Shown here piece after piece: positions 5,037 to 32,370 of a DNA stretch of 37,091 bases. Positions within the stretch are counted from its first letter, which is position 1. Each line of letters opens with the position of its first letter. The notes below the pieces were generated by a model. That model was not told the DNA's origin. It saw only the letters and a list, made by a program, of their open reading frames with translations, and searched no databases. Both the position numbers and the translations under genes were made by a program. Origin of the DNA: Terriglobia bacterium (GTDB taxonomy: Bacteria; Acidobacteriota; Terriglobia; Terriglobales; Acidobacteriaceae); the NCBI GenBank assembly GCA_020073185.1, contig JAIQFT010000040.1, positions 1 to 37,091 of the forward strand, in the 5' to 3' direction.

Positions 5037-5081
5037 CCCGGCACTTACGTGCCGGGCCAGGTTCTGTCGCCCCTGCGGGGC
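5037..5081. repeat. REP-like double hairpin
   Basis: Two adjacent palindromes: CCCGGCAC-ttac-GTGCCGGG at 5037-5056, a perfect 8-bp stem, and GCCCC-tgc-GGGGC at 5069-5081. Paired short GC-rich hairpins in intergenic DNA resemble a REP/BIME module distinct from the RAYT-linked type. Confidence 0.55.
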
Positions 5082-5129
5082 TGAGGCCATGCAGTCCGTA
5101 GGAATGCGGCAGCTCGAACGAAGAGGATT

Positions 5130-9321: not shown

Positions 9322-10278
9322 ATGCACGAAACTGTTGATTTCCTAATCGAGCACGGTTACTCCCTGCTATTCGCCTGGGTTCTGGCGGAGCAGTTGGGCC
9401 TGCCGATCCCATCGCTGCCGTTACTGCTGGCAGCCGGCGCATTGGCCGGCGCAGGCAAGCTGGGTTTCGGCTGGACAGTGGCGCTGGCGCTGGCGGCTTG
9501 TATCATCGCCGACGTGCTATGGTACGAAATCGGCCGCCGCCGGGGCGGCAAGATCCTCGGCCTGCTCTGCCGCATCGCGCTGGAGCCGGAATCCTGCGTT
9601 CGGCGTACGGAAGACGCCTTTCAGAACCACGCTTCGCGCTCGCTGCTGATCGCCAAGTTTGTTCCCGGCCTGAACACCGTCGCACCGCCCATGGCGGGCA
9701 TGACCGGAATGCCGCTGTGGCGCTTCCTGGTATTTGATGCCCTCGGCGCACTTCTCTGGGCAGGGGGAGCGACCCTGCTGGGGTACATATTCAGCGGCCA
9801 GTTGGAATATCTGGCGCTGTACCTGTCGCGGCTTGGGGATGTCGCGGTTGTCCTGGTGGCGCTTCTGCTGGGCGCCTACATCCTGCGTAAGCACCTGGCA
9901 CGCCGGCGCTTTGAGCGCGAGCTGTGGATGTCGCGGATCACGCCGGAGGAATTGAAAGCCAAGCTGGACTCCGGAGAGCCGGTGACGATCGTGGATTTGC
10001 GCCATCCGCTGGATTTTCTGCCTTATCCGCAAGTGCTTCCGGGAGCGATTCGGCTGTCGCCGAGCGACATTGAGCAGCGCCACAACGAGATTCCGCGCGA
10101 TCGCGAGGTCATCCTGTATTGCACTTGACCCAACGAAGCGACCAGCGCCCGGGTGGCGCAGCAACTGAAACGGCAGGGAGTAACGCGGGTTCGACCGCTG
10201 GCTGGAGGCTTTCATGGCTGGCGAGAGCGGGGTTACCCGCTGCAGGAGTTCTATCCCGAGCTGGCAGCCGCGCAGTGA
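9322..10278 (+). CDS. DedA-family membrane protein fused to rhodanese; in-frame TGA, likely selenocysteine
   Basis: 318 codons. Residues ~1-200 form a DedA/VTT integral membrane domain with several hydrophobic helices and the KFVPGLNTVAPPMAG signature. Residues ~210-318 form a cytosolic rhodanese (sulfurtransferase-like) domain: ITPEELKAKLD, VDLRHPLDF, PGAIRLSP, then the active-site loop. That loop reads YCT-TGA-PNEATSARVAQ, where related proteins usually have YCxCPNE. Translation by the standard code stops at 10128, but the same frame continues for 49 clean codons (QLKRQGVTRVRPLAGGFHGW, then RERGYPLQEFYPEL) to a TGA at 10276-10278. The downstream part is plainly the missing rhodanese C-terminus. 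A hairpin suited to selenocysteine insertion follows the TGA. Alternatives are a recent nonsense mutation or a sequencing error. The convergent methyltransferase ends seven bases further on. Confidence 0.75.
10126..10159 (+). promoter_or_regulatory. Putative Sec codon and SECIS hairpin (DedA-rhodanese)
   Basis: TGA at 10126-10128, then a 5-bp stem GCGCC (10145-10149) / GGCGC (10155-10159) with apical loop CGGGT. The loop starts 22 bases after the TGA and has G as its second base, fitting the general bacterial SECIS pattern. The stem is short. Confidence 0.5.
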
Positions 10279-14206: not shown

Positions 14207-14674
14207 TTAATCAGCGGCGGACTCCTTCAACGTGGCCAGCACCTCTGCCGCGTGGCCGGCAGCTTTCACGCCGCGGAATTCGCGCAGCAGCTTGCCGTCC
14301 GGGCCGATCACAAATGTGCTGCGCTCGATGCCCATCACCTTCCTGCCGTACATGTTTTTCTCTTTCAGCACGCCGTAGGCCTGGGCGAGTTTCTTATCCG
14401 AGTCGGAGAGCAGAATGAACGGCAAGTTGAACCGCTGTTGGAATTTCTTCAGCGCACGCGGCGAGTCGGGCGAGGCGGCCACGACCTCAGCGCCGGATTT
14501 TTTGAACTTGGAGTATTCGTCGCGAAACTCGGACGCCTCTAGGTTTCAACCCGGCGTGTTCGCCTTGGGAAAGAAATAGAGGACGACGGTTTTGCCTCGG
14601 AATTGCTTCAGGGAGGCGCTCTTTTCGTCCTGGTCGGGCAAAGTGAACTCGGGGGCTTTATCATTGACTTGCAT
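14207..14674 (-). CDS. BCP/PrxQ-type peroxiredoxin with in-frame TGA, likely selenoprotein
   Basis: 156 codons including the stop. Thiol/selenol peroxidase of the bacterioferritin comigratory protein family. From the ATG at 14674 (GGAG seven bases upstream) the frame reads NDKAPEFTLPDQD, then KTVVLYFFPKANTPG, then TGA at codon 43 (14548-14546), then NLEASEFRDEYSKFKKSGAE and on through VVAASPDSPRALKKFQQRF, STFVIGPDGKLLREFRG to the normal C-terminus. In this family the residue after NTPG is the peroxidatic Cys. The usual resolving Cys five residues later is Ser (EAS), and the protein has no other Cys, so without a residue at the TGA it would have no redox centre. A hairpin suited to Sec insertion follows. 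Ordinary gene calling would report only the 91-codon tail from a GTG at 14482. A nonsense mutation or sequencing error is the alternative. Confidence 0.82.
14518..14548 (-). promoter_or_regulatory. Putative Sec codon and SECIS hairpin (peroxiredoxin)
   Basis: Minus-strand TGA at 14548-14546, then a stem of CGTC+CGA pairing with TCG+GACG (one bulged C) at 14535-14518, apical loop GTT. The loop begins 18 bases after the TGA with G first, fitting the bacterial SECIS pattern. Confidence 0.55.
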
Positions 14675-16061
14675 GCAAGTTCTCCGGCGGAAAGACATCT
14701 TACACCGCGGGCTGATGGTAGCGCTGTGCCTGGCGCTGGTAGTCGGCGTGGCGGCTCAGCGCACGTCGCGCAAGAGCAAGGGCCCGCGCGCGCTGGCGCT
14801 GGTGGAGTGGCCCGCAACCGGCGGCAGCCCGCGCGTGATTCCGGTGGCCATCCTGGTGGACGGCCGCTTCTATGACGCATCCATCTACAAAGCCGATCCG
14901 GTGCCGATGGCGCTGGAGCCGGGAAATGTGTACGAGGTCGAGCAAAGCGGTGAGTCCATCGGCATGGCAACCCTGACCGATGCGCGCCAGGCGAAGAATG
15001 GCGCGTGGCTGGCGGACGCGCGTTTCCAGACCAACGAGCAGCTTGCCGCTTCGCGCAAACCCCGCGAAGCGCCGAAGTCCGCCCGCGAAGGTCCGCCGAG
15101 ATTGCGGCGCGGCAGCCGGCGCTCCGCTCCCGACAACACGCCCCAGAGCGCGCCGGAACCGAAGTCAGAACCGCAACCAAGCGAAGGCGACGAGCCGCCC
15201 GTGCTGAGGAAGCCGCCGGCGCAAACGCCAACGCCGGACACAAAGCCGAGCGCGCCGGCATCGCCGGCGCCCGCTGCGCCTTCTCCCGCGAGCACTGCGC
15301 CGAAGCCGGAGGACACGGATCACCCGGTGCTGCGGCGCGGGCGTCCGACGGCTGAGCAGGCGGAGAATCTTCCCGGTGCGGTCGAAACCAAAGCCGCACC
15401 CAAAGCGCCGGCCGCGGCCGCAGGCCCAAGTTCGCCGGCAACGAAAACGGCAGCCGCGGCGCCGGGGCGCGTGCTGGCGGCGATCTCCGATGCCGATGGT
15501 CCCGAGCCGCGCAGCTTCGCCTTGCCGTGGAAGGCGGAAGACCAGGAGAAGCTGAAGACCGCCATGATCCAGTTGGCGAGCGCCGCGCTGGAAGACTGGA
15601 CGCGCACGCATGGCGGCTCACATCCGGAAAAATTGCAGGACGTGCAGGTGCGCGCCTTCGATCTCACCACCAGCAACGAGCCGCAAGTGGTGCTGATGGC
15701 GCGCGCCGTAGAAGCAACCGTTGCGCCGGTGCGTCGAGCGGGCGCAAGAGCGGGGACGACGAAGCCTTCGGCGCATGCATCCGCTTCAACCAGCGCCGGC
15801 GGACTGACGTATTGGATCACGCTGGCGGCGCGGCAGGATTACAACGGCGAGTTGCGGAAGCTGAAAGTGTGGGCGACGGACAGCAAGCATCTGGACGCAT
15901 ATCCGCGGGCGGAGTTGATTGACGCCGTGGATGCCGACGGCAACGGCCGCGGCGAATTGTTGTTCCGCGAGATCTCCGACGTTGGACAGAGCTTCGTTCT
16001 CTACCGCGCCACGCCGGATACGCTGACCCAGCTCTACAACAGCGCGGAACTGGAGCGGTGA
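14673..16061 (+). CDS. Exported Pro/Ala-rich hypothetical protein
   Basis: 462 residues from the ATG at 14673; an ATG at 14715 is also plausible and would remove the overlap with the divergent peroxiredoxin start. The N-terminus carries a signal peptide or anchor (LMVALCLALVVGVAAQ). An N-terminal globular part (~50-140; ALALVEWPATGGSPRVIPVA) precedes a long Pro/Ala/Glu linker (~150-300) containing two PVLR motifs (DEPPVLRKP and DHPVLRRGR). A C-terminal globular domain (~305-462) ends DADGNGRGELLFREISDVGQ, similar to an FG-GAP/EF-hand-like Asp loop. No enzymatic motif is seen. It is presumably periplasmic or surface-exposed. Confidence 0.75.
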   Translation: MQVLRRKDILHRGLMVALCLALVVGVAAQRTSRKSKGPRALALVEWPATGGSPRVIPVAILVDGRFYDASIYKADPVPMALEPGNVYEVEQSGESIGMATLTDARQAKNGAWLADARFQTNEQLAASRKPREAPKSAREGPPRLRRGSRRSAPDNTPQSAPEPKSEPQPSEGDEPPVLRKPPAQTPTPDTKPSAPASPAPAAPSPASTAPKPEDTDHPVLRRGRPTAEQAENLPGAVETKAAPKAPAAAAGPSSPATKTAAAAPGRVLAAISDADGPEPRSFALPWKAEDQEKLKTAMIQLASAALEDWTRTHGGSHPEKLQDVQVRAFDLTTSNEPQVVLMARAVEATVAPVRRAGARAGTTKPSAHASASTSAGGLTYWITLAARQDYNGELRKLKVWATDSKHLDAYPRAELIDAVDADGNGRGELLFREISDVGQSFVLYRATPDTLTQLYNSAELER

Positions 16062-21040: not shown

Positions 21041-21097
21041 TGGAACGTAGTTTACAACCGATATAATTGAGCTGGCGATGTATCAGGGCAGGACCCT

Positions 21098-21127
21098 TGT
21101 ATCAGGGCACGACTTTAGTCGTGCCGC
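21098..21127. repeat. Left outer REP of the RAYT element
   Basis: TGTATCAG then the palindrome GGCACGACT-tt-AGTCGTGCC. It encodes the last codons and stop of the RAYT gene on the minus strand. The exact inverted copy is at 21681-21710. Confidence 0.9.
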
Positions 21128-21638
21128 CCGCAGCCACCCACGACGGGGCTTTAGCCCCTGCGAATGGATTCTCGTCTAACTCGTAGCCCGGGTGTGCCGA
21201 ACTGTATTCCCATTGCTCAGGCGAAGCGACCAGCCCCGCCCTGACAGGATTCTCGCGAATGTACGTTTGCCGGGCCAGAAATGCCTCGGGAGTAAAGATA
21301 CGCACCTCCGAAAAACCACGCTGCCAAACCTCGCCCTGAAATTGCTGCTCGTGAGAGGCTCGGTACGAAAAGCCGCCTTTGATCAATTGCACTGCCCGTT
21401 CGATGGCAATATCCGCGCCAACCGTGACCAGCGCGTGCAGGTGATCGGGCATGACAACGAAGTCGTGCAAGGTGTATTTGTGCTCGGAACGATAGTGATA
21501 CAGGGCATCAACGAGCAGACGGGCCATGCGGTGACTTTGCAGCAAACGCGCGTGTCCCCATGTGGCGGTGGTCACAAAGAAGGTGCGATTCGCTTGGAGT
21601 GGCTGGCTCGGATCGGCATTGCGGGTTGGGATCGACAT
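21102..21638 (-). CDS. REP-associated tyrosine transposase (RAYT, Y1_Tnp)
   Basis: 178 residues. Single-strand DNA nuclease related to IS200/IS605 TnpA, thought to mobilise REP sequences. Visible signatures: RTFFVTTATWGHARLL near the N-terminus, the HUH motif in VVMPDHLHALVTV, and the catalytic Tyr in RQTYIRENPVRAGLV. The start at 21638 has GAGGG a few bases upstream, partly inside the inner repeat. The C-terminus GGTTKVVP and its TGA are encoded by the left REP itself, tying the gene tightly to its substrate repeat. There is no inactivating mutation, so it may be active. Confidence 0.92.
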   Translation of the reverse strand: MSIPTRNADPSQPLQANRTFFVTTATWGHARLLQSHRMARLLVDALYHYRSEHKYTLHDFVVMPDHLHALVTVGADIAIERAVQLIKGGFSYRASHEQQFQGEVWQRGFSEVRIFTPEAFLARQTYIRENPVRAGLVASPEQWEYSSAHPGYELDENPFAGAKAPSWVAAGGTTKVVP

Positions 21639-21680: not shown

Positions 21681-21710
21681 GCGGCACGACTAAAGTCGTG
21701 CCCTGATACA
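21681..21710. repeat. Right outer REP of the RAYT element
   Basis: Exact inverted copy of 21098-21127: GCGGCACGACTAAAGTCGTG followed by CCCTGATACA. Confidence 0.9.
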
Positions 21711-21804
21711 ACGATCATCGTCCACCTGCCTGTTGTTCGTTGCGCGGCAGCTTTAACGAACGAATCTCGGCGCAACGCCTCGATCAAGGTTGTGGACGTG
21801 AACG

Positions 21805-29301: not shown

Positions 29302-30699
29302 CTAAGCCGTTCTGGCCGGAATCTCCGCCAGGGGAAGCCACACCTGAAACCGAGTATCGCCGGGCCGGGAGGTGACCTGAATGTTGCCTCGGTGCTTCTT
29401 CACAATGCGCTGGACCGTATCGAGACCGAGTCCCGTCCCCTCTCCGACTCCCTTGGTGGTGAAGAAAGGCTCAAAAATACGGGGCCTGATCTCGGGCGGA
29501 ATGCCTGGACCGCTGTCGCCGATCTCGACGACAACGCAAGCGTCCTCTCGATAGGTCCGAACTCGAAGCTCGCCACTGCCCCCCATCGCGTCAATAGCGT
29601 TGTCAATGATGTTGGTCCAGACCTGGTTGAGCTCGCTCCCGAACGAATTCACCAGGAGAGGAACCTGCTCGTATTCGCGCCGCACCACCACTGCGCGCCG
29701 CTTGAGCTTATGGTTCAGTATTGTAAGTGTGTTTTCCAGGCTCTTCACGATGTCCACGTTTTGCACCGGCGCCTGGTCCATGAAGGTGTATTCCTTAATC
29801 GCACGCACCAGCTCGGAGATCCGCGAGGTACTGCTCTCGATTTCGTTCAACAGGGTCGCCACCTCGACGGACGCAGCGATCCGCACCAGAGCGGCCCTGG
29901 CGGTATCTGCGTCGAGGCTGGTAAACAACGATTGCAGGACTTCCGGCTTGACGCCTCTTCGCGCAAGATCGGCGGCCAATTGCCACAAATTGCTCTGCCC
30001 GTGGCTTTGCAACCACGAATCAAGCTGGTCTTCCAAATCGCTGATGGTTAGAGCATCGGGGGGCGGCCCATCCAGCCCGGTGAGCGCAGCTTCCAGCTTT
30101 TCGATTTCCGCTTTCTGTGCCGAGGTGAGGTCGCGCCTTCCCAACTCGTGACTCGCGTCCTTAATCCGTTTCAGAAGGTCGCGCAATTGGCTGGTAGCAC
30201 GTTGGGCGGCAGAAGCAGGATTGTTGAGCTCATGAGCGAGACCCGCGGAAAGCTTGCCCAGAGCAGCCAGCCGGTCACGCTGTTGCTCGATGCGGGTAGT
30301 TTCACGGATTCTATCGGACATCACGCCCACCAGGCGCTTGGCCAACTCCGGCATCTTCTGCACCAGATCCGGAAACAGCGATGCCGGAAAACGCAGGATG
30401 CGGCTGTCTGTCACTGCCCGCGCGGTCACCGCGAGCTGCTTCATCCTGGAGAACGGCAGGGTTCCGGTGACATCGCCCGACTTGTTAGAAAGTACAACCG
30501 TTTCGCCACCAAACTCGCCGCGCAACTGCGTTTCTCCCTCAAGGATCACGTACATCGCGTCCGCAGAATCTCCCTGGCGGAGATAGACTTCACCGGCGTG
30601 CACTTGCATCTCCTGCGACTGGCTTAAGAACCAGGCAATCTGGTCCTCGGGCAGATCGGCGAATGCCGGGACGCGAAGTAATTCCGATTTCTCGATCAT
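29302..30699 (-). CDS. Sensor histidine kinase with N-terminal cyclic-nucleotide-binding domain
   Basis: 465 residues, no membrane segment. The N-terminal CRP-like domain (~1-135; RQGDSADAMYVILEGETQLR, then a DVTGTLPFSRM loop) could sense a nucleotide or act as a docking domain. A dimerisation/phosphoacceptor segment follows with LAALGKLSAGLAHELNNPAS (His near residue 155). An unusually long helical insert (~175-290) precedes a second coiled part. The ATPase domain has NQVWTNIIDNAIDAM (N box), DSGPGIPPEIR (G1), IFEPFFTTKGVGEGTGLGL (F and G2). Its ATG directly abuts the stop of the upstream REC fusion (TAAATG), so the two are translationally coupled and probably partners. Confidence 0.93.
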   Translation of the reverse strand: MIEKSELLRVPAFADLPEDQIAWFLSQSQEMQVHAGEVYLRQGDSADAMYVILEGETQLRGEFGGETVVLSNKSGDVTGTLPFSRMKQLAVTARAVTDSRILRFPASLFPDLVQKMPELAKRLVGVMSDRIRETTRIEQQRDRLAALGKLSAGLAHELNNPASAAQRATSQLRDLLKRIKDASHELGRRDLTSAQKAEIEKLEAALTGLDGPPPDALTISDLEDQLDSWLQSHGQSNLWQLAADLARRGVKPEVLQSLFTSLDADTARAALVRIAASVEVATLLNEIESSTSRISELVRAIKEYTFMDQAPVQNVDIVKSLENTLTILNHKLKRRAVVVRREYEQVPLLVNSFGSELNQVWTNIIDNAIDAMGGSGELRVRTYREDACVVVEIGDSGPGIPPEIRPRIFEPFFTTKGVGEGTGLGLDTVQRIVKKHRGNIQVTSRPGDTRFQVWLPLAEIPARTA

Positions 30700-32370
30700 T
30701 TAAACCTTGCTTAGGTACTGATGGATGAACTGCACCGCCACCGATCCCTCTCCGACTCCGGAGGCCACGCGTTTGACGGAACCGTGGCGCACGTCGCCAA
30801 CGGCAAAAAGGCCGGGGACATTGGTCTCGAGCAGAAACGGATCGCGGTCGAGCGTCCATCCCTTGGGACGTTGCCCGTTGCGAATAAGATCGGGACCAGT
30901 CAGGATGAACCCGCGTTCGTCGCGTTCGACGACATTCGCCAACCAGTCGGTTCGCGGCAGCGCCCCAATGAAGATGAACATGGCATTGGCCGCCACGCGC
31001 TCTGTTTTGCCGGTGTCGGAACACAAGACTGAGATTTCCTCCAAGTGCGATTCACCATGGACTTCGGCCACGGCGGCATGAGTCCACAGTTGAATGTTGG
31101 GTGTCTTTTTGACTTGGTCGATCAAATACTGTGACATGGTGCTGTCGAGGGAGGCGCCGCGCACCAAGATGACGACGCGCTCGGCGTACTTGGAAAAGTT
31201 CATCGCGGCCTGACCCGCCGAATTCGCGCCGCCTACCACATAGACAATCTCGCCCTTACAGGAGAGCGCTTCGGTCGAGCCGCCGCCATAGTAAACGCCG
31301 GCACCCTGCAAGCGATCGATACCCGGAGCGGCCAGGCGCTTCCACTGCACTCCCGCGGCGATCATCAAGGCGTGACAGGAGATCTCGTTGCCGTCCGCCA
31401 GCTTGATGATGCGGTAAGGCCCTTCGATGCGAATGCCGACCGCCTCCTGCGGCGACAAGATTTCCACGTCAAAACGGCGAGCCTGCACAACCGCGCGACG
31501 GGCCAGATCGGCGCCGCTAAGCCCGCTGGGGAATCCGAGATGGTTCTCGATGAGCGAACTCATTCCTGCCTGGCCGCCCGGCGCTTCGCGCTCAATCATT
31601 ACCGTTTTCAGACCTTCCGATGCGCCATAAACGGCAGCGGCCAGCCCGGCCGGACCTCCACCCACGATCGCCAGATCGTAAAAGCTAGTTTGCGCACGCG
31701 TCCGCAAACCAATCTTCTGGGCAACATCCGCGGGCACGCCCTCCAGGAGCTTGGTCCCGTCGGGGAACAGCATGACCGGGAGTTTGGCGGCCTCCGGGCC
31801 CAGAGCCTCCAAGAGGCGTTTAGTTTCCGGATCATTGGCGGAAAGCTCAACGTCGATCCACTGATAGGGAACATGATTGCGGGCGAGGAAATCGCGCAAA
31901 TCATACGAGCGTGGCGACCAGCGCGTGCCCAACAAGCGTATTCCGTCGAAAGTTGGGTGGTAAGAAGCTCGCCAGTCGTCGAGCAAGTCATCCAACTGCG
32001 GATAGAGGTGCTCCGCGGGCGGGTCCCAAGGCTTGAGGAAGAAGTAGTTAATGTTGGCTTGATTGATGGCGCTGATGGCGGCGTTGGTATCGGCGTATGC
32101 GGTGAGCAACGCACGCTTGGCTTCGGGAAAGATCTGAGATGCTTCCTGCAAGAAACCGACGCCGTCCATGCGCGGCATGCGCTGGTCCACAAGAAGCAGG
32201 GCCACACTGTCGTTGCGGACCTTCAGTTGCTTAAGAAGGTCCAGCCCACCCTCGGGAGAATCGCTTCCCATGACTCGGTATTCGGCGCCGTACTGCGAGC
32301 GAAGATCCCGTTCAATCGTGCGCAAGACGTCGGCGTCGTCATCGACACTCAGCAGAATTGGTTTCGCCAT
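30700..32370 (-). CDS. Response regulator fused to glutaredoxin-like and thioredoxin-reductase-like domains
   Basis: 556 residues. REC domain at ~1-125 with SVDDDADVLRTIE, the phosphoacceptor Asp62 in LLLVDQRMPRMDG and Lys113. A glutaredoxin-like region follows (~145-220; RWSPRSYDLRDFL, LPVMLFPDGTKLL), where the usual CPxC is SPRS. The rest is a FAD/NAD pyridine nucleotide reductase (~230-556): LAIVGGGPAGLAAAVYGASE, APGGQAGMSSLIENHLGFP, VYVVGGANSAGQAAMNF, VPGLFAVGDVRHGS. The thioredoxin-reductase CxxC site is replaced by VYYGGGSTEA. So all canonical redox Cys motifs are absent although both nucleotide sites look intact. GAGG lies six bases before the ATG. Such REC-TrxR fusions are known; their signal and reaction are not settled. 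Confidence 0.92.
   Translation of the reverse strand: MAKPILLSVDDDADVLRTIERDLRSQYGAEYRVMGSDSPEGGLDLLKQLKVRNDSVALLLVDQRMPRMDGVGFLQEASQIFPEAKRALLTAYADTNAAISAINQANINYFFLKPWDPPAEHLYPQLDDLLDDWRASYHPTFDGIRLLGTRWSPRSYDLRDFLARNHVPYQWIDVELSANDPETKRLLEALGPEAAKLPVMLFPDGTKLLEGVPADVAQKIGLRTRAQTSFYDLAIVGGGPAGLAAAVYGASEGLKTVMIEREAPGGQAGMSSLIENHLGFPSGLSGADLARRAVVQARRFDVEILSPQEAVGIRIEGPYRIIKLADGNEISCHALMIAAGVQWKRLAAPGIDRLQGAGVYYGGGSTEALSCKGEIVYVVGGANSAGQAAMNFSKYAERVVILVRGASLDSTMSQYLIDQVKKTPNIQLWTHAAVAEVHGESHLEEISVLCSDTGKTERVAANAMFIFIGALPRTDWLANVVERDERGFILTGPDLIRNGQRPKGWTLDRDPFLLETNVPGLFAVGDVRHGSVKRVASGVGEGSVAVQFIHQYLSKV

Follow-up and report, generated by a model that had tools for sequence, protein, structure and literature searches.

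Results

An In-frame TGA at the Active Site of a PrxQ/BCP-type Gene

The stretch of DNA that we analyzed (37,091 nt from a soil acidobacterium, termed the window) very probably encodes a selenocysteine-containing thiol peroxidase of the PrxQ/BCP type, in which SelB directs the insertion of Sec-43 and which likely acts as a one-selenol peroxidase reduced by thioredoxin. The gene is located at positions 14207-14674 on the minus strand, with an ATG at 14674-14672 and a TAA at 14209-14207, and specifies 155 residues, as concluded from its translation, Pfam/NCBIfam and PDB sequence matches, orthologs, and a structural model. Its frame contains a single TGA (codon 43; 14546-14548, minus strand) and is otherwise intact. 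When this codon is read as Sec, it occupies the peroxidatic position of the PxxxTxxC motif, as judged from the sequence and the corresponding ortholog column, and the active-site motif becomes PKANTPGU. The preliminary description of this DNA had claimed that conventional gene calling recovers a mere tail of the gene, that read-through of the TGA joins this tail to a proper N-terminus, and that the TGA replaces the catalytic Cys of an NTPGC motif. Our analysis bears out all three points. The ORF list holds only a 91-residue frame (14207-14482, minus strand) beginning with a GTG at 14482; read-through connects it to the ATG, which is preceded at a distance of 7 nt by a probable ribosome binding site, GGAG (14682-14685, minus strand); and many orthologs carry TGC or TGT where our gene has TGA. 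Two ORFs located upstream (14608-15621, minus strand, and 14592-16061, plus strand) returned no Pfam matches. A scan of the complete window found 152 TGAs that satisfy a simple open-frame rule, so that such a frame carries little weight by itself; for PrxQ, homology is decisive.

We next consider this homology, with Sec written as Cys in all family searches and in modelling. The joined frame matches Pfam AhpC-TSA with 135.9 bits (cut-off 26, E 9e-40) and PRK09437, a thioredoxin-dependent thiol peroxidase family, with 142.9 bits, just over the cut-off of 140. The best PDB sequence match is 5enu, aligned over residues 2-149, and an AlphaFold2 model calculated from 24 window and ortholog sequences (pLDDT 94.3) has a BCP chain as its top Foldseek match in the PDB, with a TM-score of 0.98. 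Pro-36, Thr-40, position 43, and Arg-118, which we take to be the catalytic arginine of PrxQ/BCP enzymes, are invariant in all 24 alignment rows. At position +5 from the TGA, where two-Cys PrxQ proteins have their resolving Cys, the window protein contains Ser-48 (TCC; 14531-14533, minus strand), as concluded from the translation and the orthologs. It is thus not of the two-Cys type, which is still compatible with BCP membership. Apart from the TGA position, the frame has no Cys codon at all. Membership in the PrxU subfamily (NF040737 peroxi_PrxU) could be discarded, the score of 49.7 bits lying below the cut-off of 270.

It is conceivable, though unlikely, that the gene encodes a selenoprotein whose main role is not that of a peroxidase but, for example, the sensing of peroxide, chaperone activity, or thiol-disulfide chemistry. 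The preservation of PxxxTxxU and Arg-118 in 24 of 24 rows and the predicted PrxQ/BCP fold speak against such a role, which in turn could draw on the presence of other peroxiredoxin-like frames in the host genome, with which peroxide removal could be shared, and on the chaperone function reported in the available text of PMC6590489 for Deinococcus radiodurans PrxQ.

Codon 43 in Orthologous Genes

Orthologs were defined as the best one-way match per genome, and gene neighborhood played no part in this definition. From 100 genomes (including the host's own), 94 orthologs were read and 93 were counted. Genomes G059, G061, G064, G066, G068, and G073 produced weak peroxiredoxin matches only and were left out, so that no clear PrxQ ortholog was found in these 6 genomes, among which 5 have selA over the cut-off; the gene in G082, which has a TGA as well, falls below the score limit of 250. 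A set from named contigs consisted of the best 80 of 292 confirmed loci, all 80 of which were read, bringing the collection to 174 loci (94 plus 80, with partial overlap, e.g. L029 and L058). The nearest relative among these best 80 of 292 is a Terriglobia metagenome-assembled genome (88% identity), and the named relatives belong to the Acidobacteriota; the window itself presumably derives from the Terriglobia.

An ortholog alignment had been suggested in the preliminary description as a check for Sec/Cys exchange, which indeed occurs at exactly codon 43. This codon is TGA in 43 and TGC or TGT in 50 of the 93 counted genomes, and the best 80 named-contig loci (of 292) contribute 19 TGA and 61 Cys codons. 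TGA, TGC, and TGT are the only codons in column 43 of all 174 loci. One further stop is present in the aligned stretch of 4 of the 94 orthologs, in each case no more than 5 residues from its end. A quick tree, calculated from 162 distinct proteins after masking of the Sec and +5 positions, requires at least 18 Sec/Cys changes, on branches most of which are not well supported. The likelihood model assigns a higher rate to Sec-to-Cys than to Cys-to-Sec change, a result that depends on the root (midpoint root, quick tree). Sec and Cys forms are densely mixed among close relatives, and a hairpin is kept in one group only (see below), which makes for a fine-grained record of Sec/Cys exchange.

A SECIS-like Hairpin Downstream of the TGA

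A SECIS-like hairpin located at 14518-14535 (minus strand) was identified by folding and by comparison of TGA and Cys forms. Its stem of 7 base pairs has one bulge and is capped by an apical GUU loop (14528-14526), which is reached 17 nt after the TGA. Bacterial SECIS elements, as outlined in the available part of PMC13188914, have a loop of 3-9 nt with a G in the first two loop positions, a stem of 4-16 bp, a spacing of 16-37 nt, and an energy of at most -7.5 kcal/mol. Shape, loop G, and the 17-nt spacing of our hairpin are within this rule. Its energy is -5.4 to -6.7 kcal/mol when folded alone, short of the -7.5 limit, and -8.9 kcal/mol over 48 nt with outer pairs included; for a 60-nt stretch, the best fold differs from the SECIS-like hairpin. 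Compared with shuffled sequences, the z-score is -0.55, and 56 of 200 shuffles fold equally well. The hairpin for which the preliminary description gave a start 10 nt downstream of the TGA and a G as first loop base is correctly placed and has the GUU loop, but it is weaker than had been implied. Its marginal energy, together with the different fold preferred over 60 nt, is the weak point of our case. As folding energy does not separate it from shuffles, we did not take energy as proof and compared TGA and Cys forms instead.

For this comparison, the 174 loci yielded 56 TGA and 104 Cys distinct 48-mers. The Gly-47 codon is GGG in 34 of 37 TGA forms, compared with 5 of 71 Cys forms, whereas GGC is the commonest Gly codon elsewhere in both groups. 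After Gly-47, the next codon is TTC in 36 of 37 TGA and 49 of 71 Cys forms. Where Glu-47 alters pair 20-24, the Phe codon that follows is TTT in 14 of 14 TGA forms versus 8 of 17 Cys forms. A G in the first loop position occurs in 51 of 56 TGA and 21 of 104 Cys forms, and at least 7 of the 8 listed pairs can form in 36 of 56 and 5 of 104, respectively. Pairs 14-31 and 15-30 are each present in 89% of the TGA forms, versus 31% and 20% of the Cys forms; pair 16-29 is rarer in TGA than in Cys forms (73% versus 94%), and pair 17-28 is made by only 27% of the TGA forms, other bulges being in use. The best fold of the 48-mer includes the hairpin loop in 45 of 56 TGA forms (it is missing in 11) and in 30 of 104 Cys forms. 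A brute-force version of the published bSECIS rule is passed by 43 of 56 TGA and 21 of 104 Cys forms. Together, these sequence comparisons indicate that codon choice maintains the hairpin in TGA forms only, and this comparison between genomes is much stronger than the energy of the window hairpin. One TGC-form gene (L063:3001-3453, plus strand) encodes Ser-48, retains all 8 hairpin pairs, and agrees with L064, a TGA form, at 96% of positions when counted without gaps. It is probably the outcome of a recent Sec-to-Cys change that left a fossil SECIS behind.

These data bear on whether the TGA could be a true stop codon, with a 42-residue product made either alone or next to a separate 91-residue product starting from the GTG at 14482. 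We consider this very improbable, despite the energetic weakness of the window hairpin and a plain ORF list that holds the 91-residue frame only: neither half would contain a working active site, 50 of the 93 genomes have a Cys codon in place of the TGA, and the hairpin appears to be maintained by codon choice in TGA forms. In addition, dN/dS values among four genes of the same genus are 0.04-0.20 upstream of the TGA (codons 1-42) and 0.07-0.17 downstream of it (codons 44-148), pointing to purifying selection on either side of the TGA. With their intact frames and this selection on both sides, the orthologs are not a collection of pseudogenes, an outcome that the preliminary description had named as one that would speak against a Sec-containing product.

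Selenocysteine Machinery and Other In-frame TGA Genes

The host assembly has a size of 4.66 Mb in 121 contigs and is estimated to be 100% complete. We searched it for sel genes, as had been proposed, and found the complete set. Profile searches detect SelA (554.9 bits), SelB (366 bits), and SelD (365.2 bits), each over its cut-off and the last with an in-frame TGA inside its own gene, and tRNA-Sec scores 66.8 bits with the anticodon tca. A second tRNA-Sec candidate at threshold (47 bits) turned out to be a tRNA-Ser with the anticodon tga. All 43 TGA-form genomes have selA, 42 of them over the cut-off and one (G071) as a contig-end fragment just under it. The Cys-form genomes divide into 30 with and 20 without selA, and none of the 20 genomes lacking selA has the TGA form (Fisher p 8e-7, kinship being ignored). 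Decoding of the TGA as another residue, either Trp by a change of the code or Cys by misreading, is consequently as improbable as a true stop, given the full Sec system in this genome, the restriction of TGA forms to genomes with selA, and the lack of any Trp codon at column 43 in 174 loci. A sequencing error or a pseudogene is more improbable still, because the identical TGA recurs in relatives that were assembled separately, among them the 3 genomes detected for the same genus (82-88% identity), and in 43 of the 93 counted genomes, and because the frame is otherwise intact with dN/dS values in the range given above. We thus retain the reading of codon 43 as Sec.

Other frames in the window and in the host genome contain in-frame TGAs. 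At 9322-10266 (plus strand) of the window, a DedA (VTT)-rhodanese frame has a TGA (10126-10128) in its rhodanese motif, LYCTU. Its Rhodanese match of 26.1 bits rises to 50.9 bits on read-through, and the frame scores 91.4 bits against NF041203 rhodanese_LYCAU, a CxU seleno-family, which is below the cut-off of 115; besides PrxQ, the window thus likely encodes another selenoprotein here. Elsewhere in the genome, contig C31 carries selA and an AhpC/PrxU-like peroxiredoxin frame (L202:7753-8259, minus strand) with the motif TPAU at its TGA and a PrxU score of 91.7 bits, below the cut-off of 270; neighboring frames presumably encode a catalase-peroxidase and a Fur-type regulator. Contig C35 holds a peroxiredoxin-like frame with a signal-like N-terminus and the motif FTGGU, again with an in-frame TGA (L203:1411-2004, minus strand). 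It scores 71.7 bits against PRK09437, below the cut-off of 140, and represents a candidate third Sec-peroxiredoxin. Since PrxQ is reduced to its tail by standard gene calling, and since this genome has several redox candidates with in-frame TGAs, acidobacterial antioxidant systems are probably under-annotated.

The window has further features. A 556-residue frame at 30700-32370 (minus strand) has a response-regulator receiver domain and, after it, a thioredoxin-reductase-like oxidoreductase (197.4 bits against TIGR01292, below the cut-off), and it adjoins a cyclic-nucleotide-binding histidine kinase frame (29302-30699, minus strand). An Acido-Lenti-1 RNA is located at 5037-5082 (plus strand; 50.7 bits, over the gathering score of 37). 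A 36-nt inverted repeat (21092-21127 and 21681-21716, 94% complementary) flanks an ORF at 21102-21638 (minus strand).

Loss of the Resolving Cysteine

We compared the occurrence of the resolving Cys between the two forms. Cys occupies position 48 in 44 of the 50 Cys forms and in 19 of the 43 TGA forms, and it is absent from 6 and 24 of them, respectively; in its place, the TGA forms have Ser (13), Arg (7), Asn (3), or Ile (1). Of the 43 TGA forms, 16 contain no Cys apart from the TGA position; among the 50 Cys forms, the catalytic Cys is the sole one in 1 case. An independent-pairs test of Sec against loss of Cys-48 provides 4 pairs on well-supported branches, with a median p of 0.5. A likelihood test for correlated change gives an LR of 19.5 (p 6e-4) on a quick tree of ~155 columns with a midpoint root, where a few clades can mislead. 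The likelihood result is suggestive of a correlated change of Sec and Cys-48 loss. The Ser at the resolving site and the lack of any other Cys, both pointed out in the preliminary description, are confirmed by the translation; absence of the resolving Cys, however, is common among BCPs, and most prokaryotic BCPs aligned in the available part of PMC8945050 are without it.

Discussion

We propose that the window gene encodes a Sec-containing PrxQ/BCP enzyme. The frame, family, predicted fold, machinery, Sec/Cys exchange, selection, and hairpin conservation in relatives were computed, and from these we infer Sec insertion, peroxidase activity, substrate, and reductant as follows. SelB with its Sec-tRNA would bind the hairpin just past the UGA and insert Sec-43, allowing for synthesis of the entire 155-residue protein. 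In peroxiredoxins, the peroxidatic residue attacks the peroxide, which in the case of Sec generates a selenenic acid. Here, the Sec-43 selenolate, positioned by the PxxxTxxU loop together with conserved Arg-118, may attack H2O2 or alkyl hydroperoxides. As the chain contains no resolving Cys, an outside thiol would have to reduce the selenenic acid. Thioredoxin is the likeliest donor, because thioredoxin reductase is present in the host genome (376.5 bits, over the cut-off) and a profile search for glutathione synthetase GshB found no match there, an argument that concerns the glutathione route only. Direct reduction by thioredoxin, most likely for a one-selenol peroxiredoxin of this kind, has been described for a 1-Cys BCP (PMC8945050, in the part available).

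On the scale of the Terriglobia, we give an even chance to a broader reading, in which Sec at the peroxidatic site frees PrxQ from its resolving Cys, many of these proteins ending up as Cys-free one-selenol peroxidases, and in which Sec has repeatedly been replaced by Cys, leaving at least one fossil SECIS (L063), so that exchange would run mainly from Sec to Cys. This direction would be the opposite of that in the available text of PMC1794560, which counts 12 Sec-Prx proteins with five Cys-to-Sec events and no Sec-to-Cys event for Prx. If the broader reading is true, the Terriglobia would lend themselves, as a natural series, to tests of why lineages retain or lose Sec.

The statement that Sec-containing peroxiredoxins are established in other bacteria agrees with the literature, as far as the texts were available. 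Prx of COG1225 (Bcp) with the motif TxxU is tabulated among Sec proteins in PMC9312934; PMC2398784 has pfam00578 with TxxU and 253 Sec-peroxiredoxins in marine samples; and PMC5029168 reports 91 Sec-peroxiredoxins in 78 organisms. For Acidobacteria, PMC1794560 lists 4 selenoproteins from 3 families, and in PMC12013277, one Acidobacteriota genome is given with 3 genes for known selenoproteins. By title or the start of the abstract, our search of the open-access literature found no paper on an acidobacterial Sec-PrxQ or its Cys-free form.

We compared the window PrxQ to known systems. It shares fold and active-site motif with the Cys-type PrxQ/BCP proteins of Xanthomonas, Xylella, and Burkholderia (PDB 5iiz, 3ixr, 5enu; ~40-45% identity in the Foldseek rows), which have Cys where the window protein has Sec, and it differs from them in having no resolving Cys. 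The PrxU of Eubacterium acidaminophilum, reportedly described by Soehling in 2001, is, like the predicted window protein, a peroxiredoxin with Sec as its peroxidatic residue, although the window protein scores below the cut-off of the corresponding family, NF040737. The 1-Cys BCP of Burkholderia cenocepacia likewise has no resolving Cys, and its sulfenic acid is reduced directly by Trx or by GSH/Grx, according to the available part of PMC8945050; it uses a thiol, where a selenol is predicted for the window protein, whose genome yielded no GshB match. With the Sec-Prx/Bcp proteins tabulated in the available parts of PMC9312934 and PMC2398784, the window PrxQ has both family and Sec position (TxxU) in common. 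It may differ from them in lacking the resolving Cys and indeed any Cys, and its host is acidobacterial. As Sec-Bcp is already catalogued in PMC9312934, the window PrxQ adds one more case of a known protein type. A less ordinary feature of the aligned genes is that TGA forms lack the resolving Cys far more often than Cys forms do.
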